In this document: positions 1-13,518 of the stretch, in pieces | Layout of the letters: each line of letters begins with the position of its first letter | Position numbering within the stretch: position 1 is the first letter of the stretch | Assembly: GCA_030064795.1 (NCBI GenBank) | Contig: JASJEI010000294.1 | Coordinates: forward strand, 1-14,668 | Source: Pleurocapsa sp. MO_226.B13 | GTDB taxonomy: Bacteria; Cyanobacteriota; Cyanobacteriia; Cyanobacteriales; Xenococcaceae | Direction of reading: 5' to 3' | Length of the DNA stretch: 14,668 nucleotides | Program-made: the position numbers and the translations under genes | The notes under the pieces: model-generated | Databases searched by the model: none | The model's input: only the letters and a program-made list of their open reading frames with translations | What the model was told of the DNA's origin: nothing

Positions 1-2
1 CT

Positions 3-143
3 CGGATTACTAATGGCAATTTCCGCCTTTTAAATCGACTGTTTAGACAGATTCAGCGCGTAATTAAAATCAACGAGCTTAACTGCATTACAGCAGAAGT
101 TGTGGAAGCTGCCAGGGAATGTTTGGTAATTGGAGCAATTTAA
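3..143 (+). pseudogene. tniB: C-terminal fragment of a TniB/TnsC-like AAA+ transposition ATPase (cut by window edge)
   Basis: The third forward frame is open from the window edge to a TAA at 141-143 and gives 46 residues. They include NGNFRLLNRL, then a hydrophobic/basic helix with RVIKINELN and EVVEAARECLVIG. This resembles the last helical segment of TniB/MuB-type AAA+ ATPases, which load the DDE transposase at the target in Tn5053/Tn7-like elements. The ATPase core (Walker A and B) lies outside the window, so intactness cannot be judged. A GGGAG motif at 145-149 follows the stop directly and precedes the resolvase-like relic, as in a tightly packed tni operon. The assignment is by eye from a short tail; another AAA+ protein with the same helical lid is possible. 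Confidence 0.6.
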
Positions 144-149
144 CGGGAG

Positions 150-275
150 ATGAAAATTGGCTATATCTGTAATTTCAAAGAGGGACAGAGCGATCCTGAA
201 ACGACTACAGTTGTCGCTCTAAAAGAAGCAGGTTGTCAAAAGATATTCAGCAATACTATGCAGGACATTACTTAA
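150..275 (+). pseudogene. Relic of a serine resolvase/invertase N-terminus
   Basis: A 41-codon frame starts at ATG 150, directly after GGGAG at 145-149, and ends at TAA 273-275. Its start MKIGY and the later ALKEAGCQKIF match the usual opening of serine recombinases (MKIGYARVST...Q...AL..AGCEKIF). The segment that should carry the catalytic serine (RVS) reads ICNFK instead. The protein stops after strand two, against about 180-200 residues for the family. It therefore looks like a dead stub of a TniR-type resolvase. In tni modules such a resolvase normally sits downstream of tniA, tniB and tniQ, so a tniQ gene would be missing between this stub and the TniB tail. A small unrelated peptide cannot be excluded. 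Confidence 0.45.
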
Positions 276-298
276 TGAGTAACGCCATCTATGTAACA

Positions 299-1198
299 CT
301 ACCTTCTTCTATGTTTAGCTAAGTCTTTGCGCGGCGAGTTGCCGAACTTGCGTGAATACTCACGACTAAACTGCGTGGGGCTTTCATAGCCTACTTCAAA
401 CGCAGCACTGGAAACGTTATGCGTCCCATTCATCAACAATCGGCGAGCTTCGAGGAGCCTAAGCTCTTTCTGATATTGCAATGGCGTCGTAGCGGTAAGT
501 GCCTTGAAATGCTCGTGAAAGGACGACGGGCTTAACCCTGCAACACTTGCTAACTCTGCCACGGTCAGGGATGTGGCGTAGTCCTCCTTAATGCGGCTGA
601 TCGCCTTAGCTATACGGTCAGCATGGCTCCCAGGGCGAAGTAGCTGGCGCAGCATATCGCCATGCTGTGCTAGAAGTAGTCGGAAATGGATTTCGCGCAG
701 GACAAGCGGGAGCAGTACCTTGGCTTCTAAAGGTCGATCGATCAAATCAACGAGCCGCCCCATCGCATCGAGCAGAGCCTCATCTGTCTTGCCAACGTTG
801 AGTGCCCGAGTATGCTCTTCTTCAATCTCGACTTCGCTCACCTCGTTGTAAAGACTGCGCACTATACCCATGTCAAGTTCCAATACAAGAGCTACATAAG
901 GGTTCATCTCGGTTGCTTCGGTCACGCGCGAGATGACCGGCAGTTGATGGCTGACAATCAGGGACTCACCCGCTGTAAAACTCACTCGGCGCATACCCAA
1001 ATGGGTTTCCTTACGTCCCTGGAGGATGAGGCAGAGCAAGGGATTGTAAAGAACCGCCTCCAACGCCGTGGGCTTGCGGCTTCGCAGAATTGTAAGTCCG
1101 GCGAGGTCAGTGGCATACAACTCCATATTTGCCTGTTGGCACTCTGCGTGTCGATCTGCATAAGCACAAACATGGGCAATAAGATCTCGGTTCTGCAT
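299..1198 (-). CDS. AraC/XylS-family transcriptional regulator
   Basis: This 299-residue protein has the two-domain layout of YqhC-like AraC regulators. Residues about 20-180 form a cupin-type AraC N-terminal domain (PLLCLILQGRKE, FTAGESLIVS, LPVISRVTEA). Residues about 190-299 form the double helix-turn-helix (LTVAELASVAGLSPSSFHEHFK, then AAFEVGYESPTQFSREYSRKFG). The ATG at 1196-1198 is preceded by AAGGAGA seven bases upstream, which supports this start. It is transcribed away from three SDR genes and is probably their regulator; related AraC proteins often control neighbouring reductase genes and respond to small electrophiles or aldehydes. The inducer cannot be read from the sequence. The gene looks intact. 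Confidence 0.93.
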   Translation of the reverse strand: MQNRDLIAHVCAYADRHAECQQANMELYATDLAGLTILRSRKPTALEAVLYNPLLCLILQGRKETHLGMRRVSFTAGESLIVSHQLPVISRVTEATEMNPYVALVLELDMGIVRSLYNEVSEVEIEEEHTRALNVGKTDEALLDAMGRLVDLIDRPLEAKVLLPLVLREIHFRLLLAQHGDMLRQLLRPGSHADRIAKAISRIKEDYATSLTVAELASVAGLSPSSFHEHFKALTATTPLQYQKELRLLEARRLLMNGTHNVSSAAFEVGYESPTQFSREYSRKFGNSPRKDLAKHRRR

Positions 1199-1260
1199 AA
1201 ACGTCTCCTTTTCCGTCTATCGACCAAGATACATATGCGGATGTAAAAAGACCAATAGAT

Positions 1261-1296
1261 CGGAGGATTAGGCAGATCTTTCGGAGGATGTGGCAG
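1261..1296. promoter_or_regulatory. Candidate AraC-type operator (two direct half-sites, 21-bp period)
   Basis: CGGAGGATtaGGCAG (1261-1275) recurs as CGGAGGATgtGGCAG (1282-1296), matching at 13 of 15 bases with a period of exactly 21 bp, two helical turns. AraC-family proteins typically bind tandem direct half-sites on one DNA face with about this spacing. A possible -10 (TATTAT, 1319-1324) has no recognisable -35. The downstream half-site would end where the -35 should be, as at activator-dependent promoters. This would put the transcript start near 1331, upstream of the SDR start at 1352. The repeat is seen; its role is inferred. Confidence 0.6.
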
Positions 1297-1351
1297 GCAG
1301 GCAGTCATGGTGAGACCTATTATTTGGAACATAGTAAGTTTATATCTGACC

Positions 1352-2110
1352 ATGACTGACAAAATCGCTCTTATCACTGGCGGTAGCCGCGGTATTGGCC
1401 GTAGCACTGCCTTGTATTTGGCAGAGAAAGGTGTTGGCGTCGTGCTGACTTACCTGAGCCGTTCGGACGAGGCAAATTCAGTCGTAGCCAAGATTGAAAA
1501 CCTCGGTGGTTGCGCTGCTGCACTCCAACTCAATACAGGTGATACCGCGCAGTTTAAGTCTTTCGCGGAGCGCTTTGCCAATACTCTCAACCGTGTGTGG
1601 GGACGCCAGTCGTTCGATTATCTCGTTAACAATGCTGGGAGCGGCATTAATGCTTCCTTTGCTAAGACGACAGAAGACGAATTTGACACCCTGATGAATA
1701 TTCATGTGAAGGGAGTCTTCTTTCTCACACAACGACTTTTACCGCTGATTGAAGATGGTGGTCGGATCGTGAATCTCTCCTCTGGTCTCGCCCGATTCTC
1801 GCTACCTGGATACGCTGCCTATGGAACGATGAAGGGGGCAGTAGAGGTTCTTACTCGCTATATGGCCCAGGAACTTGGCCCACGCGGCATTGCAGTTAAT
1901 GCGATCGCGCCTGGTGCGATCGAGACTGATTTTGGCGGAGGCATGGTGCGCGACAATCCCGAGGTTAACAAGTTTGTGGCCGCTTCCACAGCGATGGGAA
2001 GAGTGGGCCTTCCCGATGATATTGGCGGTGCGATCGCTAGCCTCTTGACTGGTGAAAATCAATGGATGACCGCGCAGCGCATCGAAGTTTCCGGCGGCAT
2101 GAACCTTTAA
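1352..2110 (+). CDS. Short-chain dehydrogenase/reductase (classical SDR) 1
   Basis: This 252-residue NAD(P)-dependent oxidoreductase has the Rossmann motif TGGSRGIG at residues 9-16, NNAG at 93-96, a catalytic Ser at 143/144, and Tyr157-x-x-x-Lys161 (YGTMK). These are followed by APGAIETDF and a C-terminal end typical of FabG-like SDRs (VSGGMNL). The frame is open from an earlier ATG at 1307. I chose ATG 1352 because the fold begins two residues later, and the extra 15 residues would overlap the putative promoter. No clear ribosome-binding site precedes 1352. The next SDR follows after 19 bases. The substrate is unknown; an aldehyde or keto group is usual for this family. It lies divergent from the AraC gene and downstream of the 21-bp-period repeat. 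Confidence 0.93.
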   Translation: MTDKIALITGGSRGIGRSTALYLAEKGVGVVLTYLSRSDEANSVVAKIENLGGCAAALQLNTGDTAQFKSFAERFANTLNRVWGRQSFDYLVNNAGSGINASFAKTTEDEFDTLMNIHVKGVFFLTQRLLPLIEDGGRIVNLSSGLARFSLPGYAAYGTMKGAVEVLTRYMAQELGPRGIAVNAIAPGAIETDFGGGMVRDNPEVNKFVAASTAMGRVGLPDDIGGAIASLLTGENQWMTAQRIEVSGGMNL

Positions 2111-2129
2111 CCAGAGAAAAAACTAAAAC

Positions 2130-2945
2130 ATGAGAAAGACAATTTTAATTACTGGGGCCTCCAGTGGCATCGGCAAGGAAACAGCGAATTTATTCCAAGC
2201 GAAGGGGTGGAACGTAATTGCCACCATGCGTACACCTGAGAAGGAAGAAGAGCTGACTCAACTAGATAACATCCTGATTACTCGTTTGGACGTGACCGAC
2301 AGCAGCTCAATCAATACATCCATTGCCAAAGGTATCGAGAAATTTGGACGTATCGATGTACTTTTGAATAATGCGGGGTACGGTGCCTATGGCCCACTAG
2401 AAGCCTTTCCAATGGAAAACATCCGCCGCCAGTTTAACACCAACGTGATTGGCCTCCTGGAAACGACAAAAGCGATACTGCCTCATTTCCGCACAAACAA
2501 GGCTGGGACAATTGTGAACATTAGCTCAATTGGTGGGCAGATGACGTTTCCCCTCGGTACGCTCTATCACGGCACCAAATTTGCGGTCGAGGGTCTTTCC
2601 GAAGCGTTGCATTACGAGCTAGAACCCTTTGGCGTAAAGGTGAAGATTGTGGAGCCTGGTATGATCCGCACCGATTTTAGCAGTCGTTCCTTCGATTTTG
2701 TCAACGACGAGACGATAGAAGAATACCAAGACACCGTACAAAAGCTCTTTACCCATTGGCGTGGCATAGGTGAAAGCGCATCTGAACCCAGTGTCGTGGC
2801 AGAGGTGATTTGGACTGCCGTGACCGACGAGACTAATACACTACGCTATCGGGCTGGCAAAGATGCTGTCAAATTGCTGGATCACCGCAAAGCCCAGGAC
2901 GATGAATTTTTTATCGGCAATATGAAAAAACAGATAGGTCTGTAA
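2130..2945 (+). CDS. Short-chain dehydrogenase/reductase 2
   Basis: This 271-residue classical SDR has TGASSGIG at residues 8-15, NNAGYG after the fourth strand, a catalytic Ser at 132/133 (ISSIGG), and Tyr146-x-x-x-Lys150 (YHGTK). The EPGMIRTDF segment follows. The long C-terminal part (about residues 185-271) resembles the extended substrate loop of SDRs acting on bulky or lipid-like substrates. Its ATG lies 19 bases after the stop of SDR 1, with only a weak AGAGAA upstream, so translation may be coupled to SDR 1. It belongs to the same transcription unit and is probably under the AraC regulator. It is intact and complete in length; the specific substrate cannot be assigned. Confidence 0.93.
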   Translation: MRKTILITGASSGIGKETANLFQAKGWNVIATMRTPEKEEELTQLDNILITRLDVTDSSSINTSIAKGIEKFGRIDVLLNNAGYGAYGPLEAFPMENIRRQFNTNVIGLLETTKAILPHFRTNKAGTIVNISSIGGQMTFPLGTLYHGTKFAVEGLSEALHYELEPFGVKVKIVEPGMIRTDFSSRSFDFVNDETIEEYQDTVQKLFTHWRGIGESASEPSVVAEVIWTAVTDETNTLRYRAGKDAVKLLDHRKAQDDEFFIGNMKKQIGL

Positions 2946-3021
2946 ATTTCAGCACGTATTCCTCCTCTGAATTAATCACCTAAACAATACATACAACAAT
3001 ATAGATAACGGAGAATTAATT

Positions 3022-4026
3022 ATGTCTCGCGATCAACACCGTTCTTCTGGACCTTCAGATCCAACCCGTCGCAAACTGCTCTCGACTGCTGCCATTGGTG
3101 TAGCAGCAGCAGCTACTGCTGCCGCTCTAGGCACACCTGCCGCCGCACAGGACACTTCTACTAGTGTGACTGCGCAACCATCGCCAGAACCGACTGGTGA
3201 ATTTACAGGTCAGTGTGCTTTTATAACAGGCGGTGCTCGGGGCATCGGCTACGCCTGTGCTGAAGAGTTCGCCAAAGCCGGCGCAAATATTGTTCTCTAC
3301 GACATCGCAGGCAATATCGATACCGTCAACTATCCCCTGGCAACCGAGCAAAACTTGGCAACGGCAAAATCGAATATCGAAGCCCTTGGCGTCAAATGCA
3401 TCGCGATTAAAGGCGATGTTCGCGACAGCACGAAGCTGGAAGAGAGTGTTGCACGTACAGTCAGAGAATTCGGCCGTTTAGACATCCTAATCGTCAATGC
3501 GGGTGTCACACACGTTGGCGTGATCGATGAGTTTCCTGACGAAGAAGTCCAAACGGTCATCGACATCAACCTCACTGGAGCCATCAAAACCACTCAAGCA
3601 GCACTACCGATCATGCGCAGGCAGAACGCTGGCCGCATTGTGATGATTTCCTCAATCTTGGGACGGATTGGCAACGAGGACTTCTCGGTCTATGCATCAA
3701 CAAAATGGGGATTAATCGGTTTCGCTAAGAGTACGGCTCTCGCGATGGCCAAACATAATGTGACGTGTAATGCCGTGTGCCCAGGATGGGTGCGGACAAA
3801 ACTGGCGGACAACGACTATATTCTCAACGCGGTGTCCCCGGAAAATCCCAACTTTGAAGCTGTGTCAGAAGCAGCCGAAGCAAGCTACCATCCTTTACCC
3901 ATCGGAGCTTACGAACCTGTTGATATTGCACGAGTAGTCAAGATGTTTTGTGGTCAAGCTACGGCGATGATTACTGGAGAAGTTTTTGACATCTCGCAGG
4001 GCCAAAACGCACGATTCAACGCTTGA
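3022..4026 (+). CDS. Tat-exported short-chain dehydrogenase/reductase 3
   Basis: This 334-residue SDR carries an N-terminal export signal. A twin-arginine motif TRRKLLS lies at residues 15-21, then an Ala-rich hydrophobic stretch (22-38) and an AxA-type cleavage site near residue 42 (PAAAQ). A mature SDR fold follows: TGGARGIG at 69-76, NAG (VNAGVTHVG), Ser at 210/211 (ISSILG), Tyr224-x-x-x-Lys228 (YASTK), then CPGWVRTKL. Tat export of a folded enzyme with its NAD(P) bound fits the usual reason for using this route. GGAGA at 3010-3014 supports the ATG at 3022. It lies 76 bases after SDR 2, so it may have its own promoter or be the last gene of the operon. A periplasmic or thylakoid-lumen location is inferred. 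It is intact. Confidence 0.92.
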   Translation: MSRDQHRSSGPSDPTRRKLLSTAAIGVAAAATAAALGTPAAAQDTSTSVTAQPSPEPTGEFTGQCAFITGGARGIGYACAEEFAKAGANIVLYDIAGNIDTVNYPLATEQNLATAKSNIEALGVKCIAIKGDVRDSTKLEESVARTVREFGRLDILIVNAGVTHVGVIDEFPDEEVQTVIDINLTGAIKTTQAALPIMRRQNAGRIVMISSILGRIGNEDFSVYASTKWGLIGFAKSTALAMAKHNVTCNAVCPGWVRTKLADNDYILNAVSPENPNFEAVSEAAEASYHPLPIGAYEPVDIARVVKMFCGQATAMITGEVFDISQGQNARFNA

Positions 4027-4082
4027 TGATCGGTGCAATCTTAGTAACTTAGGCTTCATAACTATTAATTGTGCCGCCATGG

Positions 4083-4101
4083 CAGGATAATATCCTGATT
4101 T
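4083..4101 (+). terminator. Weak hairpin after the SDR genes
   Basis: CAGGAT (4083-4088) and ATCCTG (4092-4097) are perfect inverted arms around a 3-base loop, followed by ATTTT. The stem is short (6 bp), so this is only a possible terminator of the SDR operon, 57 bases past the stop codon. Confidence 0.3.
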
Positions 4102-4282
4102 TGGTAGGTTTTACCGCTCTAAGTTGATCGGTTTGAACTCAAGAAATGATTGCTTTCTCACTCTTTTTTAACCCATTCTCACTCAGTAATCAGAAGCTTC
4201 TCATTTAAGTTAAGCACTCTAGTAGTGAGGGCAAACATTCTCATTTCATTTGTGCGTAAATACCCATTTTCCGACACTATAC

Positions 4283-4310
4283 GCCCCTAACCGAGATGGC
4301 TAGGGGCTTT
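4283..4310 (+). terminator. Hairpin terminator, probably shared by converging transcripts
   Basis: GCCCCTAACC (4283-4292) pairs with GGCTAGGGGC (4298-4307), with one G-U type mismatch and a GAGAT loop, followed by TTT. On the minus strand the same hairpin lies four bases after the stop of the truncated leftward gene at 4314. It could therefore end both the SDR transcript and that relic. The poly-T tract is short on either strand. Confidence 0.6.
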
Positions 4311-4313
4311 CGA

Positions 4314-4571
4314 TTACTTTAAGTGTTGCTTAACTTTAGTGGCCCAGTTGGGGTCAGTGGCATAAACACCATTAAGAGCGTCCGCGATCGCCTCTGGTGT
4401 CATCCCCTTGGGTTCTAATCCCTGTTCATTCAGGATGTTAACGACTGTCCTGGCAAAACTATCAGCGCAACCAGAGCTACAGAAATCATCGGTTATAGCC
4501 TGCTCAGTTCCTCCATACCACTCGGTTGTCCCATGCGTGGAAGTGCTAAGGGAACCAGGATACCTGAGCTG
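4314..4571 (-). pseudogene. C-terminal remnant of a leftward gene, possibly a FlgJ-like glucosaminidase
   Basis: On the minus strand a frame is open from just after a TGA (4572-4574) to TAA at 4314-4316, giving 85 codons with no plausible start codon at its head. It contains TEWYGGTEQAITDDFCSSGC, then SFARTVVNILNEQGLEP, and ends GVYATDPNWATKVKQHLK. The YATDPNWA-KV ending is characteristic of the last helix of FlgJ/GH73-type glucosaminidase domains, which cleave peptidoglycan. That match is from memory and is moderate only. A GCGATCGC octamer lies inside the frame, consistent with resident cyanobacterial DNA. The upstream part is absent: the preceding stretch shows no continuation in another frame. 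I read this as a truncated gene, perhaps cut by an old rearrangement near the Tn3 insertion. Confidence 0.45.
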
Positions 4572-4882
4572 TCACGGGCTAAAGTTCATATCGAATTTTA
4601 TTCACTCGATTTTGTCAGCTTTTTTTATCTGCTTTTTTTTCGACTTGCCAACCGGCTGCATTCCTCTCCCAAACTCTTGAGACGGCTGCTTTTCGGCGTT
4701 TGCGGTCGGCATCGGGTGAGAGTTCAAGGGAACACATTGGAAAAAATATCGCCAATGCTGAGGGGGGTACAGCAATTCTTTCAAAAGTGTGCGGAAGGGG
4801 TAAAATCAGCAGCCAAAAAAAAATCCCACACCCGCCGATCGCAGGATGCGGGGATGGAATTAGCCGATGGTGGAGGCGATCA
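4572..4882. other. Unassigned stretch between the gene remnant and the Tn3 left end
   Basis: No convincing gene is seen on either strand. There are two pyrimidine-rich T runs (about 4619-4640) and an A9 run (about 4816-4825). Several overlapping open frames exist, but none has a recognisable motif, a good ribosome-binding site or a consistent amino-acid composition. Frames crossing 4883 would run through the Tn3 inverted repeat and are chance openings. Confidence 0.5.
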
Positions 4883-4937
4883 GGGCGTAAAGAGGGGATA
4901 CGTGCAAAATCCGCCAAATTGTAAAGTTTTGTAACAA
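4883..4937 (+). repeat. Tn3-family left terminal inverted repeat
   Basis: These 55 bases start GGGCGTAAAGAGGGGATACG and match the reverse complement of 8671-8725 at 44 of 55 positions by my alignment without gaps. Conservation is in two blocks: an outer one of 25 bp (TAAAGAGGnGATACGTGCAA plus the GGG tip) and an inner one (TGTAAAGnTTTGTAACAA). A variable middle of about 12 bp separates them. Confidence 0.85.
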
Positions 4938-4953
4938 ACAGGTCTCTCCACTT

Positions 4954-5070
4954 GTCTAAACTTTGCCGAGAAGGGGCTAATTTAGGCAAAGTAGACTGGA
5001 GTTAGGAACGTCAATTAGAGGGTTTGACCCATGTTGTTCCTAACTGCTCAACTTCCGTTTTCGGCAAAGT
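4954..5070. promoter_or_regulatory. Putative TnpI recombination site (nested inverted repeats over the tnpI start)
   Basis: Two repeat sets lie between the left IR and the body of tnpI. ACTTTGCC (4960-4967) is inverted to GGCAAAGT at 4985-4992, and GGCAAAGT recurs at 5063-5070 inside the coding region. GTTAGGAAC (5001-5009) is perfectly inverted to GTTCCTAAC (5036-5044). Inside that pair, GTCAA (5010-5014) faces TTGAC (5024-5028). Tyrosine recombinases of Tn4430 type act at a site just upstream of their own gene made of inverted core arms plus accessory repeats. The position and repeats fit that; the exact core and crossover point are not determined here. Binding there could also autoregulate tnpI and tnpA. 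Confidence 0.6.
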
Positions 5071-5651
5071 CCAAATCTCGCTCTCCTCCTCCCCCCAAGA
5101 AAAGCTCAGAGCGAGAACGGGAATATTTGCGCCCGTCAGAAGTCGAGTCCCTCATGGCGGCGGCTCGGCAAATCGGCCGGCATGGCCTCCGAGATGCGGC
5201 CCTAATTTTACTGATGTTTCGCCACGGACTGCGGACAGCCGAATTAGTCGCCCTCAAATGGTCAAGCGTTGACCTTCAGGGGGGTTACATTGAGATCCGA
5301 AGAGTCAAACACGGACATGATAGCGTCCATCCCCTCCGTTCTCCAGAATTAAGGGCTTTGCGCCAACTCCAACGGGATTACCCGGAAACCCAATACGTCT
5401 TCGTCTCCGAACGAAAGGCTCCCCTCTCAACTCGTTCAGTTCGCCACATCATAGCTAGGGCGGGGAAACGAGCCGGAATTCCCTTAGACGTTCATCCCCA
5501 CCAACTGCGCCATGCCTGCGGCTACTATCTAGCGTCTCAAGGGCATGATACTAGGGCGATTCAGGACTATTTAGGACACCGGAACATTCACAACACAGTG
5601 CGCTACACCCAAATGTCGCCCCAAAGATTTGAGAAATTTTGGACAGATTGA
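5031..5651 (+). CDS. tnpI: TnpI-type tyrosine recombinase (cointegrate resolution)
   Basis: This compact 206-residue phage-integrase-family recombinase has the full catalytic set: Arg68 (FRHGLRTAEL), Lys93 (RRVKHGHD), His157-x-x-Arg160 (HPHQLRHACG), His183 (LGHRN) and nucleophile Tyr192 (VRYTQMS). The N-terminal SAM-like arm domain is reduced to about 30 basic, Pro/Ser-rich residues, making it shorter than most integrases (about 300 residues). The ATG at 5031 has AGAGGG eight bases upstream and falls inside the nested repeats of the putative recombination site. tnpA follows after 27 bases. It probably resolves Tn3-type cointegrates in place of a serine resolvase. An alternative role as an integrase unlinked to the transposon is less likely, since it lies inside the inverted repeats. 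Confidence 0.88.
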   Translation: MLFLTAQLPFSAKSKSRSPPPPKKSSEREREYLRPSEVESLMAAARQIGRHGLRDAALILLMFRHGLRTAELVALKWSSVDLQGGYIEIRRVKHGHDSVHPLRSPELRALRQLQRDYPETQYVFVSERKAPLSTRSVRHIIARAGKRAGIPLDVHPHQLRHACGYYLASQGHDTRAIQDYLGHRNIHNTVRYTQMSPQRFEKFWTD

Positions 5652-5678
5652 GCGATCGCCAGAGATAATACTGTTTCT

Positions 5679-8663
5679 GTGCCCTCAAACAATCGGCTAA
5701 TAAGAGCGAACGTGGCTTCAATTGAAAGAACAGCTTATCCGCGATTCAAACGTTACTACACCGCCAAGGAACTTCAAGAAATTTATACACCCACTCCGGC
5801 GGAAATAGCATTTGGTAGAACCTCAACAACTGGAGAAGAAAACTATCTCAACTCGATCGTTTTGCTCAAGTCATTTCAGCGACTGGGCTATTTTCCCAAG
5901 CTATCTGACCTTCCTGATGCGGTCATTAACTACATCCGCACTTTTCTAAAACTCCCGCAAACTCTCGACTTGGGCTATCAATATCCCCAGACTTTATCGC
6001 GCCATAAAAAAGCAATTCGCTCTGATCTTCAGGTCAGTCCATTCAATCAAGAAACTAAGAGCTTCATCCGGGAAATTATCAAAGAATCAGCTTTAGTCAT
6101 GGACAATCCGGCTGATTTAATCAACGTCGCCATTGAAGAATTAGTCAAAAGGCGGTCGGAATTCCCTCCCTTTGCCACCTTAGATCGACTCGTTCGCCAC
6201 GAGCGAAATCTAGTTAATCAACAACTATTTTCTCAGATCACCAGTCAACTCAGTCAGGAATATCAACAGCGACTCAATGACCTCCTCGACAGTCACTCAA
6301 ACAAGCGAAGTGACTATAACGACCTCAAAAAACTGCCCCAAAAATCCAGCCGCAATCATCTCAACGACTTATTAGTTCACTTAACTTGGTTAGAAACGTT
6401 AGGAGAGGTACAGGATTTAATCCAACCGCTCACTGCCAGTAAAATTAAACATTTTGCCGCCGAAGCTAAAGCTTTAAATGCTGCGGAACTCAAAGATATT
6501 ACCATCCCCAAACGACTGACACTACTTCTGTGTCTGATTTATACAGCCCAAGTGCAGATTCGGGATTCCTTGGTAGAAATGTTTCTCAAACAAATGAAAA
6601 AAATTCAAAACAAAGCCAAGAACGAGTTGGAGTTAATCCGCCAAAAGAATCAAGAAACAACGGAAAAATTAGTCTCAGTTTTAACCGATGTCCTCGAAGT
6701 TTTCCAAGACCCCTTACCGGATAGCCAAGCCGTAGCCCAAATTCAAGGCATTTTTCAACCTCAAGGAGGAGTGGAGTCTCTCCTCGATGAGTGTGAAGCC
6801 GTTAATGCCTACAAAGGGAATAATCACCTCCCCTTACTGTGGCGCTTTTACAAGAGCCACCGCAGTTCTTTTTTCCGTGTCATTAATGCCCTCAAGTTAG
6901 CTTCAACTAGCTCGGACGAGAGATTAATTAAAGCGGTGGAATTCTTGCTCCAGAACGCCCACCGACGCGGGGCGTTGCTGACCGCTGAAGTTGACCTGTC
7001 TTTCACTTCAGAAACTTGGCGAAAATGGGTATTAGTAGAGCATAACTCTCAAACTAAAATGGTGCGGCGGCATTGGGAAGTTTGTCTTTTTTCTTATCTC
7101 GCGGCTGAACTGAAGTCCGGGGATATCTGTGTTTTTGGCAGCGAATCTTATGCGGATTATCGCCGGCAATTACTGACTGGGTCTGAAGGGGAGCCATTAG
7201 TGGGAGAATACTGTCAGAATTTAGGTTTTCCTGAAGATGCAGATGGCTTTATTGACCAACTCAAATCTGGGTTAGCCGAAACAGCTTTATCTGTGGATGA
7301 AGGCTATCCCAACCATACATCTGTTGTCATTAACGAAGCGGGAGAACCCGTCTTAAAACGACCGCTGAGTCGGAAAAGCCGCCCTTCTCTACAAGCTCTG
7401 GAAGCGATTATAGAAGAGAGAATGCCGGAACGGAATCTCATTGATATCCTCAGAAATGTGGATTACTGGACTAATTTTACCCGCCATTTTGGTCCTTTTA
7501 GTGGCTCTGACCCGAAATTGGAGCGAGCGAACGAACGCTATCTCCTGACTACTTTTGCTTATGGTTGCAACCTCGGCCCGACTCAAGCGGCGCGTCACAT
7601 GAGGGGAGTCGTTACCCCCCAGATGCTTTCTTTCGTCAACCAACGCCACGTCAGTTTAAAAGGTCTCAATGCCGCTTTGACTGATCTTATTAATCGTTAC
7701 CATGTGTTGGACTTGCCTAAGTTGTGGGGAGATGGAACGACCGCTGCGGCTGATGGGACTAAATATGACCTCTACGAGCAAAATTTACTATCGGAGTATC
7801 ACATCCGCTATGGGGGTTATGGGGGGATTGCTTACCATCATGTCGCTGATAGTTATGTTGCTCTATTCAGCCATTTTATTTCCTGCGGGACTTGGGAAGC
7901 GGTTTATATTATTGAAGGGTTGTTGCAAAATAAATCGGACATTCAACCGGAGACAATTCATGGTGATACTCAAGGTCAATCGACTCCCGTTTTTGCCCTA
8001 TCTTATCTGTTAGGGATTAATTTGATGCCTCGCATCCGTAACTGGAAGGATTTGACTTTCTATCGCCCCGATAAGGAGACGGTTTACCCACATATTGATG
8101 CTTGGTTCACAGAGACGATTGATTGGGACTTAATTCGGACTCACTGGCAAGATTTGTTTCGCGTCGTTCTGTCTATTCAAGCGGGTAAGATCTCTTCGGA
8201 TATTTTGTTGAGGAAGTTGGGGAACTACAGTCGGAAAAATCGTCTCTACCGCGCTTTTCGGGAACTGGGAAGGGTGGTCAGAACGGTCTTCTTGCTCCAG
8301 TTTATTTCTAAGGCTGAATTGCGACAACAGATTACGGCGGCGACGAATAAGGTAGAAGCTTATCACGGTTTAGTTAAGTGGTTCTTTTTTGGGGGCGATG
8401 GCATCATTGCTAGTAATGACCCAGAACAACAGGAAAAGAGCATTAAGTACAATGACCTGATTGCTAATGCGGTTATCTTCCAGAATGTGGTGGATTTGAC
8501 AGAAGTTTTGCAGCAGCTTCAACGTGAGGGGTATCTTCTGGAACGAGAGGATGTAGCTGGCTTGAGTCCTTATTTAACTCGTCACATCAAGCGATTCGGG
8601 GATTATGTGATTGACATGGAGTCCATTCCCCGTGCCTTGGATGAACAGATGCTCTTACTTTGA
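5679..8663 (+). CDS. tnpA: Tn3-family DDE transposase TnpA
   Basis: This 994-residue protein is the normal size for Tn3-family transposases (about 960-1020). The N-terminal part (TAYPRFKRYYTAKELQEIY) is the DUF4158-type DNA-binding region that recognises the inverted repeats. The C-terminal half is the Tn3 DDE domain, with Asp685 (LWGDGTTAAADG), Asp763 (IHGDTQGQS) and Glu893 (NKVEAYHG) as the likely catalytic triad. The frame can start at GTG 5679. A GTG at 5712 with AAGAG upstream, giving a protein starting at ASIERTAYP, is an equally good start (983 residues). It carries out replicative transposition to cointegrates that TnpI would resolve. No frameshift or stop interrupts it. It ends just before the right inverted repeat. 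Confidence 0.95.
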   Translation: MPSNNRLIRANVASIERTAYPRFKRYYTAKELQEIYTPTPAEIAFGRTSTTGEENYLNSIVLLKSFQRLGYFPKLSDLPDAVINYIRTFLKLPQTLDLGYQYPQTLSRHKKAIRSDLQVSPFNQETKSFIREIIKESALVMDNPADLINVAIEELVKRRSEFPPFATLDRLVRHERNLVNQQLFSQITSQLSQEYQQRLNDLLDSHSNKRSDYNDLKKLPQKSSRNHLNDLLVHLTWLETLGEVQDLIQPLTASKIKHFAAEAKALNAAELKDITIPKRLTLLLCLIYTAQVQIRDSLVEMFLKQMKKIQNKAKNELELIRQKNQETTEKLVSVLTDVLEVFQDPLPDSQAVAQIQGIFQPQGGVESLLDECEAVNAYKGNNHLPLLWRFYKSHRSSFFRVINALKLASTSSDERLIKAVEFLLQNAHRRGALLTAEVDLSFTSETWRKWVLVEHNSQTKMVRRHWEVCLFSYLAAELKSGDICVFGSESYADYRRQLLTGSEGEPLVGEYCQNLGFPEDADGFIDQLKSGLAETALSVDEGYPNHTSVVINEAGEPVLKRPLSRKSRPSLQALEAIIEERMPERNLIDILRNVDYWTNFTRHFGPFSGSDPKLERANERYLLTTFAYGCNLGPTQAARHMRGVVTPQMLSFVNQRHVSLKGLNAALTDLINRYHVLDLPKLWGDGTTAAADGTKYDLYEQNLLSEYHIRYGGYGGIAYHHVADSYVALFSHFISCGTWEAVYIIEGLLQNKSDIQPETIHGDTQGQSTPVFALSYLLGINLMPRIRNWKDLTFYRPDKETVYPHIDAWFTETIDWDLIRTHWQDLFRVVLSIQAGKISSDILLRKLGNYSRKNRLYRAFRELGRVVRTVFLLQFISKAELRQQITAATNKVEAYHGLVKWFFFGGDGIIASNDPEQQEKSIKYNDLIANAVIFQNVVDLTEVLQQLQREGYLLEREDVAGLSPYLTRHIKRFGDYVIDMESIPRALDEQMLLL

Positions 8664-8670
8664 AGGGGGA

Positions 8671-8725
8671 TTGTTACAAATCTTTACATCGTGTTCAAAT
8701 TTGCACGTATCTCCTCTTTACCCCC
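8671..8725 (-). repeat. Tn3-family right terminal inverted repeat
   Basis: Read from the right end on the minus strand it begins GGGGGTAAAGAGGAGATACG, a typical GGGG-type Tn3 tip. It ends TTTGTAACAA seven bases after the tnpA stop codon. It pairs with the left repeat at 44 of 55 positions. Confidence 0.87.
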
Positions 8726-9020
8726 TGGGCAGTCCCTGCAAAAGTCACGTTTTTTGACTTCGCACGGTTTAGGCTGAATGCCTTTCCAGAAAAGGGTTTG
8801 CGGACTTTGCCAGCAATCGCTCTCTAGGGCCTCTCAAGCACTGAAAGCTGCAAAATTTCCGAAATTGCCCCTCGTGACACCGTCGCCAGATTTACCCCAA
8901 GAGCTGTATTCCCGAGGAGCGGCGTGAATCTTTCGATTCACGCTCCGTTTTGCAGACGAGTCGGGCGAGCGATCGTCCGGCTTAGTTCAACAGCATTAGC
9001 CCTTCTCGCGGGTTCAGGTA
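8726..9020. other. Gene-free stretch between the Tn3 right end and the par repeats
   Basis: No gene is convincing. A short hairpin, AAGTCA (8742-8747) facing TGACTT (8755-8760) around a T-rich loop, lies 16 bases outside the transposon end. A much stronger hairpin is at 8922-8943. One plus-strand frame runs open for about 67 codons up to 9037 but starts without an initiation codon and shows no recognisable family. The segment may be old plasmid backbone or a replication-region fragment. Confidence 0.45.
8922..8951 (+). terminator. Perfect 9-bp hairpin, possible terminator
   Basis: GCGTGAATC (8922-8930), loop TTTC, then GATTCACGC (8935-8943) form a perfect stem. On the plus strand TCCGTTTTGC follows, a weak T tract. 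No plus-strand gene precedes it outside the transposon. On the minus strand it lies about 200 bases past the end of the par operon and is followed by no T run. It could alternatively be a structural site of the plasmid backbone. Confidence 0.45.
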
Positions 9021-9052
9021 AATGTTTAGATTTTTAAATGTCTAGATGTCTG
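9021..9052. repeat. par-flanking iterated repeats, block 1
   Basis: These are degenerate copies of the TGTTTAGA/TGTCTAGA type (ATGTTTAGA at 9022-9030, ATGTCTAGA at 9039-9047, then TGTCTGG). They are the outermost of four clusters of this motif around the par operon, about 90 bases downstream of the RHH gene. Confidence 0.6.
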
Positions 9053-9120
9053 GCTACTGCCTAGAGCTTGAGAACTCTTAAATCTGCGGGCGTGCTGTCC
9101 GCTCCCTCCCCTCCTCGAAA

Positions 9121-9158
9121 ACATCTAGACATTTAGATGTTTAGACATTTAGATGTTT
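9121..9158. repeat. par-flanking iterated repeats, block 2 (tandem 16-mers)
   Basis: AGACATTTAGATGTTT occurs twice in perfect tandem (9127-9142 and 9143-9158), preceded by the related ACATCT. The array overlaps the 3' end of the leftward RHH gene: its last codons (K-H-L-N-V-stop) are made of repeat sequence. This suggests a centromere or operator array bound by the RHH protein. Confidence 0.75.
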
Positions 9159-9434
9159 TCGACGGTCGAGCCAGTCTTCGATGAGTTCGGCAACGATATC
9201 GCTCATGTCGCGTCCGTCTTCGATGGAGGCTGTTTTGAGTTGGCGGTGCAGCGCTTTGGGTAAGTAGAGCGTCGTTCGCTGATACTCGGTGTCTTTACTC
9301 TTGGCTAAAGGTTCTTCCGTTGGCTTGGGGGGCTCGTCGTCAGATCGACTACCCGTCGGTCGGTCGCTGCTGCGAACGCTTTTGAACAGGTTGTTAAAAC
9401 GACTTTCCGATTGTGTTTTTTTCTGTGAACTCAC
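9141..9434 (-). CDS. Ribbon-helix-helix partition/regulatory protein (ParG/CopG-like)
   Basis: This 97-residue protein has a polar, charged, flexible N-terminus (about residues 1-50). Its C-terminal ribbon-helix-helix domain shows strand RTTLYLPKALHRQLK, helix DGRDMSDIVAELIEDWL and a basic tail. That matches the architecture of ParG-type centromere-binding proteins: a mobile tail that stimulates the ParA ATPase plus an RHH dimer that binds repeats. The frame stays open much further upstream, through parA. I place the start at GTG 9432-9434 because it overlaps the parA stop (GTGA) and has GGGAG nine bases upstream. Coupled translation with parA is likely. Its target is probably the flanking AGACATTTAGATGTTT repeats, and it may autorepress the operon. 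Confidence 0.82.
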   Translation of the reverse strand: MSSQKKTQSESRFNNLFKSVRSSDRPTGSRSDDEPPKPTEEPLAKSKDTEYQRTTLYLPKALHRQLKTASIEDGRDMSDIVAELIEDWLDRRKHLNV

Positions 9435-10021
9435 GCTAGTATCTCCCGACCGACTTCGACGTAACAGTTCCAGGCGATGTTGGCCATACGGTCTTTCACT
9501 TGGTTCACGGAAACTCCTTCGAGGGACGCTTTTTGAAACGCTGCCAGACGGCGGATCTGCGTGTTGAAAATCGGCAGTCCTGCCTCTTCGATCGTCTGTC
9601 GTGCGTCGTCGCCAGCGGTCGAGGGTTTCGGCGGGACGATGGTTAACAGAATCCGATACTCCGTTTCGAGCGCCTGGAGCGATTCGACCATGTGCAACAT
9701 GGCACTGAGGGCCATCGCGTCGGGCGTACAAGGCAACACCAGCAGGTCGCATCCTTCAGCGATGGTTTTGAGGTCTTGGGGTTCGGGACGGGCGGGCGTA
9801 TCGATGACGATGCGATCGTAATGACGGGCGTACTTCACGGCTTGCTTCTCGTCGCACACCTTAAACGGTAGCTGTCCGCGCTGCGACCATTCCCATGCCG
9901 AACGGTTGAGGTCGCCATCGACGAGCAGCGTGGGGGTTTGGGTTTGAAAGTACGCGGCCAGATGGAGCGCCGTTGTGGTTTTGCCAACGCCACCTTTAAA
10001 CGATGCCGTAGTGACAATCAT
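9431..10021 (-). CDS. parA: ParA-family partition ATPase
   Basis: This 196-residue ParA/MinD-superfamily ATPase has the deviant Walker A KGGVGKTT at residues 9-16, a Walker A' region LLVDGDLNRS, Walker B RIVIDTPA and the later LLVLPCTPDA. It is short and lacks an N-terminal HTH, as in type Ib partition ATPases that pair with a small RHH protein rather than ParB. The RHH gene overlaps its stop codon by four bases (GTGA), so the two form one operon. The ATG at 10019-10021 has no strong ribosome-binding site. Repeat clusters lie upstream (10057-10198) and downstream of the operon. It should segregate a low-copy plasmid or stabilise an integrated element. The gene looks intact. Confidence 0.93.
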   Translation of the reverse strand: MIVTTASFKGGVGKTTTALHLAAYFQTQTPTLLVDGDLNRSAWEWSQRGQLPFKVCDEKQAVKYARHYDRIVIDTPARPEPQDLKTIAEGCDLLVLPCTPDAMALSAMLHMVESLQALETEYRILLTIVPPKPSTAGDDARQTIEEAGLPIFNTQIRRLAAFQKASLEGVSVNQVKDRMANIAWNCYVEVGREILA

Positions 10022-10056
10022 TAGGTTGAAGCTATATCGAACGGCTCGATTTTAGC

Positions 10057-10095
10057 AGACATTTAGATGTTTGAGTGTTTGAATGTCTGAATGTC
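10057..10095. repeat. par-flanking iterated repeats, block 3 (parA upstream region)
   Basis: This block opens with an exact copy of AGACATTTAGATGTTT (10057-10072), followed by degenerate units (GAGTGTTTGAATGTCTGAATGT). It lies 36 bases upstream of the parA start codon, where an operator or centromere would be expected. Confidence 0.7.
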
Positions 10096-10150
10096 GAGAG
10101 ACTCGAACTCCTCAAATTCCCTTTTAGTTAGGGTTTTAGGGCGGCAAGCC

Positions 10151-10198
10151 AAATCTAGATGTTTAGATGTTCGGATATTTAAATATTTAAATGTTTAG
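10151..10198. repeat. par-flanking iterated repeats, block 4
   Basis: These are degenerate copies of the same motif (TCTAGATGTTTAGATGTTCGG, then ATTTAAATATTTAAATGTTTAG). The stop codon of the leftward tnpB 3' exon (TAA at 10195-10197) lies at the edge of this block, so the tnpB-containing element abuts or entered the par repeat region here. Confidence 0.6.
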
Positions 10199-10398
10199 TT
10201 AAAGTCTTCGCTTTCTGCGATTGTCTCGATATTGACAGCGAACCTGGCCGGCACCCAAATCGCGTCTCGTGAATCGATTTCGAGCGGGGCGTGCTGAGCC
10301 TGCCCCACTCGATGTTCGGCTGTCTTGGGGTTGTCAATACGAATATGAACTACGCCTATCCGCTGCGCTGAGATCGGCGTTTCTGACGCTTCAACCGA
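10195..10398 (-). pseudogene. tnpB: tnpB 3' exon (after the group II intron)
   Basis: Downstream of the predicted intron 3' end, the minus strand is open for 67 codons in the frame that continues the tnpB 5' exon. The join reads ...KQLG|SVEASETPISAQRIG... and the frame ends at TAA 10195-10197. Joining at GGG|TCG keeps the codon phase, which supports the splice sites chosen. The conserved TnpB domains all lie in the 5' exon. This tail has no motif I recognise and may partly be host sequence read through to the par repeats. In IS200/IS605 elements the guide (omega) RNA comes from the end of tnpB and the right end, so this exon could contain that RNA. I could not identify the right-end hairpin. 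Confidence 0.5.
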
Positions 10399-10438
10399 GT
10401 AAAGTCAGCGACTCCCTCACGAGAGCCGCTGCTCTCCA

Positions 10439-10472
10439 AAACCGTGCTTGATAGTTTCCCATCACACGGCTC
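10439..10472 (-). ncRNA. Group II intron domain V
   Basis: The 34-nt hairpin reads GAGCCGTGTGATGG, loop GAAA, then CTATCAAGCACGGTTT on the minus strand. It shows the catalytic AGC triad at the base, the GAAA tetraloop and a two-base bulge. It lies 20 bases past the RT stop codon, as expected for the region after domain IV. Confidence 0.9.
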
Positions 10473-10491
10473 CTCATCGAAACGGGATTTG

Positions 10492-12417
10492 TCAAATCCA
10501 CGTCATCACCAACATATCCTCTATCCACAGGTAATTTTGGGGGATGTTGGATAGTGGTTTGGGCTGGGTACTGTTACAACCCGATTTGTTGCCATAGCTG
10601 CCATCGACGGCAGTTTTACTATCGTGGCAGTGTCGATGGAGCAGTTGCCAGTTTTTGTACTCATCCTTACCACCTTTCGATTTGGGGATGATGTGGTCTA
10701 GCTCGATAATGTCTCCATCCAGAAAGTGTAGTCCACAGTGCGGGCATATCCCTTTTTGCTTCTTGAGTAGCTTGGCTATTCTTTTTGGCATTTCGGGGTG
10801 TTTGCCCATTCGGGTACTCCAGTACGTGAGATTGCCATCATAAGGGGTGGCATCACCTTTGACCTTGACGTACCCCAAGTTGGTGGATACGGAGGTGTGT
10901 TTAATTAAGTGGTAGGGATTAGAATGTTCTCGGGTTGAGAACACCCACTTGTCCTCACCTATGGTGTGCCAATACTTCTGTAGAAGCCATTTGTACCCTT
11001 TATTGCGGTGTCTGTGTTTTCCCCATTTCCAGAGCTTCCAATAGACCAAGGAATAGATTTTTGAGAACACCTTACTGCATGGGTATGGCTTGAAGTAGTT
11101 GCACCATCCGATGATGATAGGGTTCAGGTTCTTGATTAATTCTACCTGGGATTTCCCTCTGTGTTTGTCAATGACTTCAGCCAGTTTCGCGTAGTGCCTT
11201 TTTTGGGATTCCTTGGAGGGTGAGATTTGGGTTTTGAAGCCGAGTAACCTTCCTTTTGAGTCCTTTCCAGACACGCACTTTCCAGCTTGAAACTGTTTGA
11301 TGTGAAATCCAAGAAAGTCAAACCCTTCCTTCTCTCCCCGGTAGGGATTGAGGGTGTGGGTGATTCGGGTCTTGCTCGGCTTGAGTTCTAGTCCCATTTC
11401 TCGTAGCCATTCTGCTATGGACTGAAGGCACTGGTGTATAGCCTCTTCGGACTCGTGGAGAATCACGAAGTCATCGGCATATCGGATTAGGGATATTGAG
11501 CTTCTCTTGTCCTTTTTGGCAAGTTGGTGTTTTCCGTTCGTCCGTTTCATGTCGAACGTTTCGGCTAACTCTTTTACCCTTTTCTCCATGCCGTGAAGGG
11601 CTACGTTTGCCAGTAGGGGGGATATAACCCCTCCTTGCGGTGTGCCTTCTTCTGTCGGGAATAACTCTTTTCCATCCATCACACCAGCTTTTAACTAAGC
11701 TCGGATTTGTCTCCGAAGGGTGGGGGAGGTATTCAGTTTTTCGAGGAGTTTCCCGTGATTGATTCGGTCAAAACATTTGGCTATATCCGCATCCAGAACG
11801 TATTTGGGTTTTTGCTTGATACTGCCATGAATTGCTTCTATAGCAATCCTAAATGGTTTGCGGAAACGGATCGGCTGAAACCCCCATACCGTAACGATCT
11901 ATCCTGAAAACAAGCTGCAAATGAAGTCGTACTGCTATATAGCATCATGACAGCTTCTTCCGGGTCTGAAACCGTAGCTATTTGGCTCAAACTTGGCTTC
12001 CCATTCGGGTTCTAGTGCTAGTTTAACGAGAGCCTGTAATGCGCGGTCATACATGGTAGGTATCCCCAAAGGTCTTTTTTCCTCTTTTCCGGGCTTAGGA
12101 ATCCAAGCCCTTTGAGTCGGTTTGACCTTCGTACCCAGTTTCAGTTCTCCGACAAGCCTCAGACGTGCTGCTGGGGATAGGGATTTTACCCCGTCCACTC
12201 CTGCCGTCTTCTTGCCCTGGTTGTCCTGGGTGACTCTACGCACCGCCATTGCTTTGGCAGACCAAGAGTTGATTAGCAACCTCTGGAGTCTGTGAACCAG
12301 CTTGACATCGCCACGACGAGACGCTCGGCAAATCCGTTTTTGCAGCTTGAAGACATTCCGCTCCAGCTTGCGCCAGGGGATATCTTTCCATTTATACATC
12401 GGCTGTTCCGTGTTCAT
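10492..12417 (-). pseudogene. ltrA: Group II intron-encoded reverse transcriptase/maturase with HNH domain, disrupted
   Basis: The N-terminal half (12417-11938) holds RT0-RT3 (VRRVTQDNQGKKTAGVDG, RPLGIPTMYDRALQ, SYGFRPGRSCHDA). The C-terminal half (from 11682) holds GTPQGGVISPLLAN, the catalytic YADD, the maturase X domain and an HNH endonuclease (CPHCGLHF, ELDHIIPKSKGG, HRHCHD). Between them the same frame continues with YVLDADIAKCFDRINH, which carries the first catalytic Asp. Two lesions break the gene. A 97-bp insertion splits codons for DAIEAI and brings in stops. A TAG at 11695-11697 replaces the expected Trp of RAWLKAG. Restored length would be about 608 residues. The start at ATG 12415-12417 suits the family. 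As it stands no full RT can be made, so splicing or mobility would need a related protein in trans. Confidence 0.9.
11841..11937. mobile_element. 97-bp MITE-like insertion in the intron RT gene
   Basis: The RT coding sequence reads GATGCTATAGAAGCAATT when this block and one TA are removed, restoring codons for DAIEAI. The block is flanked by a duplicated TA (11839-11840 and 11938-11939). Its ends are imperfect inverted repeats: TAGCAATCC on the left, TAGCAGTAC read from the right, with a shared TTTGC further in. TA target duplication with TAGCA-type ends is typical of IS630/Tc1-like non-autonomous elements in cyanobacteria. It encodes nothing. Its parent is unknown, and the IS630 copy at the right end of the window has no obviously matching ends. 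Confidence 0.8.
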
Positions 12418-13072
12418 AACATTACCGCTACTTGCAGCCTTGCCTTCCGTTCCGAAGTGAGTCCGTCAGCCTATCCTTGCCGTTACAGCAAGGCGTTCGC
12501 TTCTGACTCAATCTTTCCCACCCGTCACCTATCTATTGATAGAGGTTGCGCCTTGGTTGGCTACTCATCCAATCGACCTTGAATGAGAGTGAGCGGTTGG
12601 GTTACTTCGTTCCTAATAGCCATTGGTTTGTCCGGTTAGGATGATACTCTCCGCCCAGGTTCGGGAAGTGCTTATCAACTGGACTAAGGACTCCGTTGAT
12701 TCCCTTAATATTTGACCTTTTTGGTTCGTCTAGCGTCTCAATCCCTTTTCGCTAGTCGAAGCTGAGGACGGTTCTGACGTACCTTCGCTCGCGCTATCCA
12801 TATGGACTTGCTCGGTCTGCATTAACCGTGGGATTCGGTGTGCTTTTGACCTTTTATCCCCGCTTTACGGATTGAAGACCACTCTCTACCGTAGGGGATA
12901 TGCTTTCACCCATGCACCTTGGGAATAGGACTTGGGATTTCTAGGATACTTTCCCTCACCTACATGGCTATTAAGTTGTCATCTGCTGAGGATTTAAGTG
13001 CGAACTCCATCCCGAAGGATTACTCAACAGATGCCAATCATCCCCCTGTTTCCAGGTTTCGATTGAACGAAT
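12418..13072 (-). other. Group II intron domains I-III (non-coding 5' region)
   Basis: This is the 5' ribozyme portion between the GTGCG intron start and the RT start codon, about 655 bases, a normal size for such introns. Short chance open frames on both strands are not genes. A TTCGGG at 12660-12665 on the plus strand would give CCCGAA in the intron RNA. That could pair with five of the last six exon bases (CTCGGG) as EBS1, a tentative match that needs a folded model. Confidence 0.75.
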
Positions 13073-13077
13073 CGCAC

Positions 13078-13518
13078 CCCGAGTTGCTTCAGGCTTCCGC
13101 AGTCAGTAGAGCTAGGTGCGTCTGCGTCTAGAGAGGACGGTTCCCGCCCCCTTGCCCAAATCAAATTGACTTGAGCGGCGTTGACATCGCGATCCTCAAC
13201 GTGGCCGCAATGCTGGCAACGATGCACCCTGTCAGATAGGGTTTTGGGTGTCAGTTCCCAACACTTCGCACATCGCTGTGTGGGTTTGACTTGCCGAGTG
13301 GGGGACTCAACGTAGAATCCCCCCGCCTCAGACGACTTGTAGGAGAGTAGATCCCCTATCGTGCCAAACCCGGTTTCGAGAATCGAGCGGTTCAGTCCAG
13401 CTTTCTGGCGTTTCCGCTTTTTCCCCTGGCGCGTCATGTTCCGCACTTCCAGCTTTTCACCAGCAATTAGGCTGTTACCGCGAACTATATCGCTGGTGAT
13501 ACGAAATCCGATTTCCAA
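13078..13518 (-). pseudogene. tnpB: tnpB 5' exon, truncated at its 5' side (IS200/IS605-type RNA-guided nuclease)
   Basis: About 147 codons match the C-terminal part of cyanobacterial TnpB. They include the RuvC-II Glu (LIAGEKLEVRNM), KAGLNRSIL, VESPTRQVKPTQRCAKC, the second zinc-ribbon half CQHCGHVE and RuvC-III DRDVNAAQVNL. The acidic tail and GSLKQLG follow, ending at the intron. Full TnpB has about 400 residues: the N-terminal WED/REC-like region and RuvC-I Asp are missing. The frame is cut just before ITSDIV, next to the IS630 transposase gene, so an IS630 insertion probably removed the 5' half. The apparent TTG start at 13516-13518 is not a real gene start. No nuclease activity is expected. 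Confidence 0.88.

Follow-up and report, generated by a model that had tools for sequence, protein, structure and literature searches.

A 14,668-nucleotide stretch of Pleurocapsa sp. MO_226.B13 DNA (contig JASJEI010000294.1; hereafter the window) carries a group II intron inside tnpB, a gene of IS200/IS605 insertion sequences (IS). TnpB is an RNA-guided DNA cutter and the ancestor of some CRISPR enzymes. The locus raises the question of whether the intron landed in tnpB by accident or whether tnpB is where introns of this kind live. Our data favor the second answer. We consider it probable that the window holds a decayed copy from a clade of HNH-bearing cyanobacterial group II introns whose main home is tnpB, reached through the pairing of two exon-binding sites (EBS1 and EBS2) with the target. 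The intron would have reverse-spliced into the 3' end of tnpB through both pairings, and introns of the clade would home to conserved coding motifs of the multi-copy tnpB gene. Splicing would restore TnpB; for insertions close to the 3' end it would restore the guide RNA as well. The introns would occasionally retrotranspose to look-alike sites and would also be carried along in copies of the IS itself.

The interrupted tnpB gene and its intron

The interrupted gene and its intron consist of the following features.

13518–13078, minus strand: exon 1, a C-terminal tnpB fragment (homology to TnpB residues 259–406)
13077–10398, minus strand: group II intron, 2680 bases, GTGCG...TTTACT (domain 5 and 6 match, tail alignment, frame on joining)
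12417–11935, minus strand: intron-encoded protein, N-terminal piece with RVT_N and the start of the reverse transcriptase (open reading frame (ORF) and Pfam)
11942–11838, minus strand: insert resembling a miniature inverted-repeat transposable element, about 105 bases with inverted ends (interrupts the intron protein; read directly from the sequence)
11682–10492, minus strand: intron-encoded protein, C-terminal piece with the end of the reverse transcriptase, GIIM maturase and HNH (ORF and Pfam)
10474–10398, minus strand: intron domains 5 and 6 (RF00029 to 10399, plus one base from tail alignment)
10397–10356, minus strand: coding part of exon 2, RLKRQKRRSQRSG then stop (frame on joining, match to relative L008)
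10397–10345, minus strand: exon 2 as far as the right end of the IS (hairpin with arms 10380–10372 and 10360–10352, one mismatch; terminus TAGTTCAT)

A preliminary description of this DNA had proposed a group II intron within tnpB, with tnpB coding sequence running to 13078, and both proposals agree with our results. Residues 259–406 of the 425-residue TnpB of an intact element (L001) align to exon 1 by tblastn with 74% identity, and this homology ends at 13078. Exon 1 also contains a Pfam TNB domain (E 6e-13). The NCBIfam guided_TnpB model matches with an E value of 1.3e-19 and 71 bits, under its cut-off of 100, as expected because exon 1 is only a fragment. We take its motifs to be the RuvC-II region, the zinc ribbon and RuvC-III. 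The first ~258 TnpB residues, which presumably included RuvC-I, are absent.

The intron begins with GTGCG at 13077, in agreement with the group II start GUGYG, and domains 5 and 6 are matched by RF00029 at 10474–10399 (56.4 bits, cut-off 40). RVT_N, RVT_1, GIIM and HNH domains were found within the intron by Pfam, spread over two protein pieces. Besides the insert, an in-frame TAG (11697–11695, read directly) breaks the intron protein. We presume that the intron is of the chloroplast-like (CL) type, which is consistent with its cyanobacterial host and HNH domain. The window's copy is a fossil: the 5' part of tnpB is lost, and the intron protein is broken by the insert and the stop.

While the start given in the preliminary description is correct, the end is not. 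TTTAC at 10399 had been taken as the end, but relatives (e.g., L052, the second intron of L053, L055, L099 and L109) finish with TTTAAT at the aligned position, and the first intron of L053 also requires one base beyond the Rfam end. Because these tails and the reading frames add one base, we place the end at 10398 (TTTACT). The exon DNA had been identified correctly, but its frame, previously read as TCG GTT GAA (SVEASE), becomes CGG TTG AAG. The joined product is ...GSLKQLG followed by RLKRQKRRSQRSG and a stop, like that of an uninterrupted Geitlerinema relative (L008, 88% identical over the best segment), which ends ...GSMRQLG, RLKRQKRLSQRSG and a stop. The matching site exists without an intron: the insertion point reads CT[AT]GGG in 16 of 17 aligned uninterrupted relatives. 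An exact search of genome contigs for the window's 3' junction DNA gave 0 matches.

The IS right end, consisting of the hairpin and TAGTTCAT, lies just past the stop codon, with its last position at base 53 of exon 2. Beyond it, the sequences of relatives diverge. The terminus is present in 20 of 20 relatives examined, out of 29 loci. A guide sequence would begin at 10344. An open stretch from exon 2 to 10195 had also been assigned to tnpB; since the IS right end lies at 10345, this assignment is without support.

Exon pairing, host genes and spread of related introns

We aligned 30 related introns and used 29 in a pairing test (one tandem copy was omitted) that compared the complementarity of six-base intron segments to their own exon with that to the exons of other introns, over 278 columns and with 500 permutations. 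For EBS1, a single place stood out at intron nucleotides ~388–394 (z 7.0), and for EBS2 a single place stood out at nucleotide ~316 (z about 10). Neither was equalled in any of the 500 permutations. At the window's insertion, where pairing of exon-binding sites with intron-binding sites (IBS1 and IBS2) had been predicted, both pairings were found.

12689–12684, minus strand: EBS1 (intron nucleotides 389–394; covariation z 7.0)
13083–13078, minus strand: IBS1, the last six bases of exon 1 (5 of 6 pair with EBS1)
12762–12758, minus strand: EBS2 (intron nucleotides 316–320; covariation z about 10)
13090–13086, minus strand: IBS2 (5 of 5 pair with EBS2)

Introns of this kind lie inside tnpB in Hydrococcus (L012, with L057 taken as the 3' half of its intron because both contig ends overlap), Prochloron (L052) and Symploca (L053 twice, and L058). 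As these first genomes had been picked for containing close tnpB relatives, we made two censuses that were blind to the host gene. Census 1 searched 388 genomes of a cyanobacterial class for the intron 5' end pattern, giving 113 matches in 57 genomes. Census 2 used a narrower pattern, near the window's intron, and tolerated one mismatch; it covered 388 genomes of an order, some of them shared with census 1, and gave matches in 81 genomes. Reversed patterns gave 0 matches in all genomes listed for either census, and the intron signal therefore cannot be due to chance. For census 2, 70 loci were classified among the matches listed. Host genes were called with TnpB profiles built for this analysis, with borderline flanks checked against Pfam and NCBIfam, and the count took in each distinct intron flanked upstream by 300 or more bases. 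Left out were short upstream flanks (including L257 and L306, the latter TnpB by NCBIfam), duplicates, and two loci missed by the script pattern (L262 and L267, of which L267 sits in tnpB).

Among the close relatives of census 2, 41 of 66 introns were in tnpB. In the broader family of census 1 the figure was 10 of 103, not including L103, where a TnpB N-terminus was recognized by eye. All of these introns were in the sense orientation, with 0 antisense. By comparison, tnpB occupies ~0.9% of the genome, based on 341 TNB matches in 8 genomes (21–107 per genome; 48.2 Mb in total, 1.25 kb per gene assumed). A plasmid search for named relatives found introns, with no tnpB case among the matches listed and the one region viewed.

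We placed 45 tnpB cases on the TnpB profile (a slash marks the insertion). Eighteen were at DRDxNAAxN/IL, between N and I, seven at DR/D and five at the zinc finger SQKC/SSCG. The remainder were scattered, giving about ten positions in all. The majority of tnpB sites fall in the RuvC-III region, upstream of the guide-RNA part. In a tree of 154 introns, 41 of them in tnpB, host changes numbered 22, compared to a mean of 35.0 for shuffled labels (lowest of 200 shuffles, 26). On the window's own branch (Shimodaira–Hasegawa-like approximate likelihood ratio test, SH-aLRT, 99), 10 of 10 introns are in tnpB, at four positions: DR/D (L052, L098, L299 and L303), SQKC/SSCG together with YTSIS/FL, judged equivalent by eye (L281, L300, L301 and L302), EDLNIKG (L053), and the window's own C-terminal site. 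Seven of these introns come from the censuses, while L052 and L053 belong to the biased first set. Therefore, the clade keeps tnpB but switches site.

On joining the exons, the TnpB frame is retained in 19 of the 22 introns for which both exons are available (21 plus L012/L057). In five (L052, the first intron of L053, L103, L300 and L301), exon 2 gives a significant match to the TnpB profile by itself, each time in the predicted frame. For the window and Hydrococcus, the frame agrees with intact relatives. The other 12 were judged by eye from residues past the junction, and the calls for L063, L102 and L174 lean on what we presume TnpB C-termini to look like. The count omits L180, whose 3' end belonged to a nested intron, L302, whose 3' end is the end of the sequence, and L260, L276, L295, the second intron of L300, L303 and L308, for which no intron tail was obtained. 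L100 and L101 hold two copies of a tnpB with its intron, yet exon 2 fails to continue the frame, and we kept this locus as a negative.

These results also bear on whether the locus is an artefact, i.e., a chimera of two contigs, one with the intron and one with tnpB. Several relatives are indeed located at contig ends. However, in ~20 relatives as well as in the window the intron lies between its two exons, with matching EBS and IBS and retained reading frames, and several introns (L099, L109 and L297) are internal to contigs 3.3 to 6.8 Mb long. We regard an artefact of assembly or annotation as extremely improbable.

The introns appear to spread in more than one way. Within single genomes, introns at least 99% identical to a tnpB-resident copy occur elsewhere (L100 compared to L165 and L166; L109 to L108; L163 to L113), and there only 13–28 bases upstream of the intron agree with the tnpB locus. 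The intron ORF is incomplete in L165 and L166. As read from their sequences, such copies at look-alike sites are products of retrotransposition, and their resemblance to the tnpB target points to tnpB as the source. In one genome, a tnpB interrupted by two introns in tandem (6.58 kb) is found at two loci 1.6 Mb apart (L099 and L243). The left edges agree within ~20 bases beside a hairpin, the right edges lie at ...GTAGTTTAT, and the flanks beyond differ. The tandem introns are identical, the second lying exactly at the 3' end of the first (L099, 3535–8752). Most simply, the IS would have carried the introns to the other locus.

Two further observations concern tnpB-resident introns. In one genome (G336), introns are nested in introns (L115, L178 and L180), forming twintrons in which the resident intron houses another group II intron within its 5' part. 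At L111, a HEARO RNA (RF02033, 111 bits; 2692–2889) lies ~960 bases upstream of the intron start.

A different explanation is that the introns land anywhere and that the tnpB copies are the survivors, tnpB being dispensable and abundant. This fits the 93 of 103 broader-family introns outside tnpB and the broken state of the window's copy, and bacterial group II introns are often found amid mobile DNA, according to the available portion of PMC4424553. On the other hand, the tnpB cases of both censuses (10 and 41, one intron common to both) are without exception in sense, EBS and IBS covary, the frame is retained in most cases, and ectopic copies mimic the tnpB target. The hosts outside tnpB also argue against this explanation. 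Of 34 upstream ORFs listed, 27 that are not tnpB and have at least 60 residues were compared to Pfam, and gave a single match to DUF4277 (L169), which we take to be a transposase-associated domain. The other matches included ribonucleotide reductase small chain (2), ResIII (2), group II reverse transcriptase (2), CutA, ParE, SSB and GST. L202 and L203 resemble Rpn-type nucleases by eye, without a Pfam match. Since close relatives concentrate in tnpB and their EBS sequences match their exons, simple opportunistic insertion, which the preliminary description had allowed for, is insufficient, and we judge it distinctly unlikely. In the wider family, the hosts of introns L067, L154 and L232 are conserved genes outside mobile DNA, namely purM (in frame, as judged by eye) and genes for the ribonucleotide reductase small chain.

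Several points weigh against tnpB as the main home. Most of the broader family was not called in tnpB. Of the 70 loci classified in census 2, 30 came from the search output as it stood and 40 were chosen by hand; the latter are all exact matches, and 8 are from one genome. Six of its tnpB calls were made by hand (L273, L284, L286, L295, L299 and L305), compared to 35 by profile, and one intron (G135; L111 = L274) is counted in both censuses. Because introns and genomes are related, the binomial P values for the tnpB excess (4e-8 for census 1, 1e-66 for census 2) are a yardstick only. The frame is lost in 3 of 22 cases (L100, L115 and L306), and the L102 junction carries a stop codon. In the window, one IBS1 position deviates from the relatives, so that the EBS1 pairing and the predicted guide-RNA fold lose one pair each. 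With tnpB and the intron protein both broken, this copy is unable to show function, and splicing of introns of its type, like homing, is something we infer from sequence. With these points considered, we still favor tnpB as the main home of the clade. The preference may stem from the many conserved targets per genome together with tolerance, in that the gene is dispensable and its message would be repaired by splicing.

The predicted guide RNA and a possible partnership with TnpB

We derived a consensus fold for the guide RNA from the last 150 bases up to the right end in 17 intact relatives (3 near-duplicates of 20 omitted).

13149–13078, minus strand: predicted guide-RNA fold, 5' part, in exon 1 (alignment of 17 relatives)
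10397–10345, minus strand: predicted guide RNA, 3' part, in exon 2 (alignment of relatives)

In this fold, 94.9% of cells are paired and 15 of 27 pairs show double changes, as measured on the alignment that produced the structure and in a segment that is also protein-coding. No measure reached this level in any of 500 shuffles; slid controls gave 31–45%. The window's insertion falls between columns 116 and 117, within helix 3 (61–69/111–118), and separates the strands of helix 2 (54–57 in exon 1, 125–128 in exon 2). The preliminary description had asked about other group II introns at the same tnpB site; among the introns examined none is exactly there, the nearest being that of Hydrococcus, 22 bases upstream and likewise within the guide-RNA segment. 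In an unspliced transcript from either site the guide RNA would be in two parts, 1.8 or 2.7 kb apart. As previously suggested, the intron parts the coding region from the 3' end, where the IS terminates and the predicted guide RNA has its 3' part. Because the predicted fold is split, splicing would be required to unite guide RNA and TnpB.

This arrangement raises the possibility of a standing partnership, in which splicing gates TnpB and its guide RNA and the intron dampens the nuclease or benefits because TnpB maintains the IS; in function, this would resemble group I IStrons. The division of a covariation-supported fold in both the window and Hydrococcus is consistent with this idea, as are the long open TnpB frames upstream of relatives' introns (382 and 393 residues) and the presence of one IS with two introns at two loci. 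A precedent comes from RmInt1, for which the accessible text of PMC4238363 proposes that poor splicing limits its IS. However, plain homing would account for the pattern, and gating of expression is a proposal. Furthermore, the guide would be independent of splicing at most tnpB sites, because sites in the RuvC-III region lie upstream of the guide-RNA part. We consider such a partnership unlikely. We also give a small but real chance to a lasting intron–TnpB composite, in which a clade faithful to tnpB hops between sites, splicing gates the nuclease and, at 3' sites, its guide RNA, and spread occurs by homing, riding on the IS and TnpB-driven IS maintenance. Homing to tnpB remains our preferred explanation.

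Neighboring genes, known systems and significance

Directly upstream, the broken 5' side of tnpB is adjoined by a transposase gene.

14320–13532, minus strand: IS630-family transposase gene

No tnpA was found among the window ORFs run against Pfam, and the left end of an IS200/IS605 element is not recognized, the 5' side of tnpB being missing. Beside the tnpB region, a Tn3-like transposon at 5031–8663 comprises a gene for a tyrosine recombinase and, after it, one for a Tn3-family transposase (762 bits). Positions 9434–10021 and 9144–9752 encode a ParA-type partition ATPase (NCBIfam ParA_partition, under cut-off) and a small companion. AT-rich direct repeats (ACATTTAGATGTT-like, by eye) at ~9020–9160 and ~10060–10210 flank this gene pair, and the whole looks like a plasmid partition locus. 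A second domain 5-like match at 8909–8957 (RF04356, E 0.0096, under cut-off) was rejected; it is a near-perfect GC-rich hairpin outside the listed genes and probably a terminator.

Uninterrupted IS200/IS605 elements with divergent tnpA and tnpB (L001–L003) share the TnpB family and right end TAGTTCAT with the window, differing in that tnpA is present. On the Acaryochloris plasmid of L001, Avd and the reverse transcriptase of a diversity-generating retroelement (3010–4448) lie directly 3' of the intact tnpB.

The closest precedent is the F4 introns in ISEL1 of Thermosynechococcus elongatus (Mohr et al. 2010; PMC2882425). According to the available text, these also are group II introns at a conserved site of an IS200-family element in a cyanobacterium, and insertion into another mobile element was proposed as a route of proliferation. 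The F4 introns number three, lack an ORF and share one site in a single species, whereas here an ORF-bearing clade occupies about ten TnpB-profile positions in many genomes. The word tnpB occurs 0 times in the main text of that report. In three Thermosynechococcus genomes we found three matches to our intron family, in two of the genomes.

RmInt1 in ISRm2011-2 of Sinorhizobium is similarly at home in an IS transposase gene, and the transposase needs splicing (PMC4238363, text available in part). RmInt1, in contrast, is a class D intron without an endonuclease domain, and its host is an IS630-Tc1 transposase gene with no guide RNA. Group I IStrons also join a self-splicing intron with an IS carrying ORF B, but there the two constitute a single unit, which is removed from a host gene by splicing (PMC4227781, as far as its accessible text goes). 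In the window, domains 5 and 6 mark a group II intron, which is internal to the IS gene and leaves the IS right end in exon 2. This structure excludes an IStron, and the suggestion of a group II counterpart of IStrons does not hold in the strict sense.

The literature searched, mostly without subscription papers, gave no report that places a group II intron within tnpB under this name. The association of this clade with tnpB was likewise not found described there, and it widens the F4/ISEL1 precedent to a clade with tnpB as its main host. The available text of a 2022 survey (PMC8919778) raises the question of why CL-type introns multiplied in cyanobacteria and notes that their sites seem unrelated to terminators. 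For one clade, a multi-copy conserved gene as home is a concrete and testable answer. An intron in the guide-RNA segment, where a one-piece guide would exist only after splicing, provides a natural test of competition between splicing and guide-RNA processing. If the lasting composite were true, it would be the group II, inside-out counterpart of IStrons. More broadly, the finding ties programmable RNA-guided nucleases to self-splicing retroelements.

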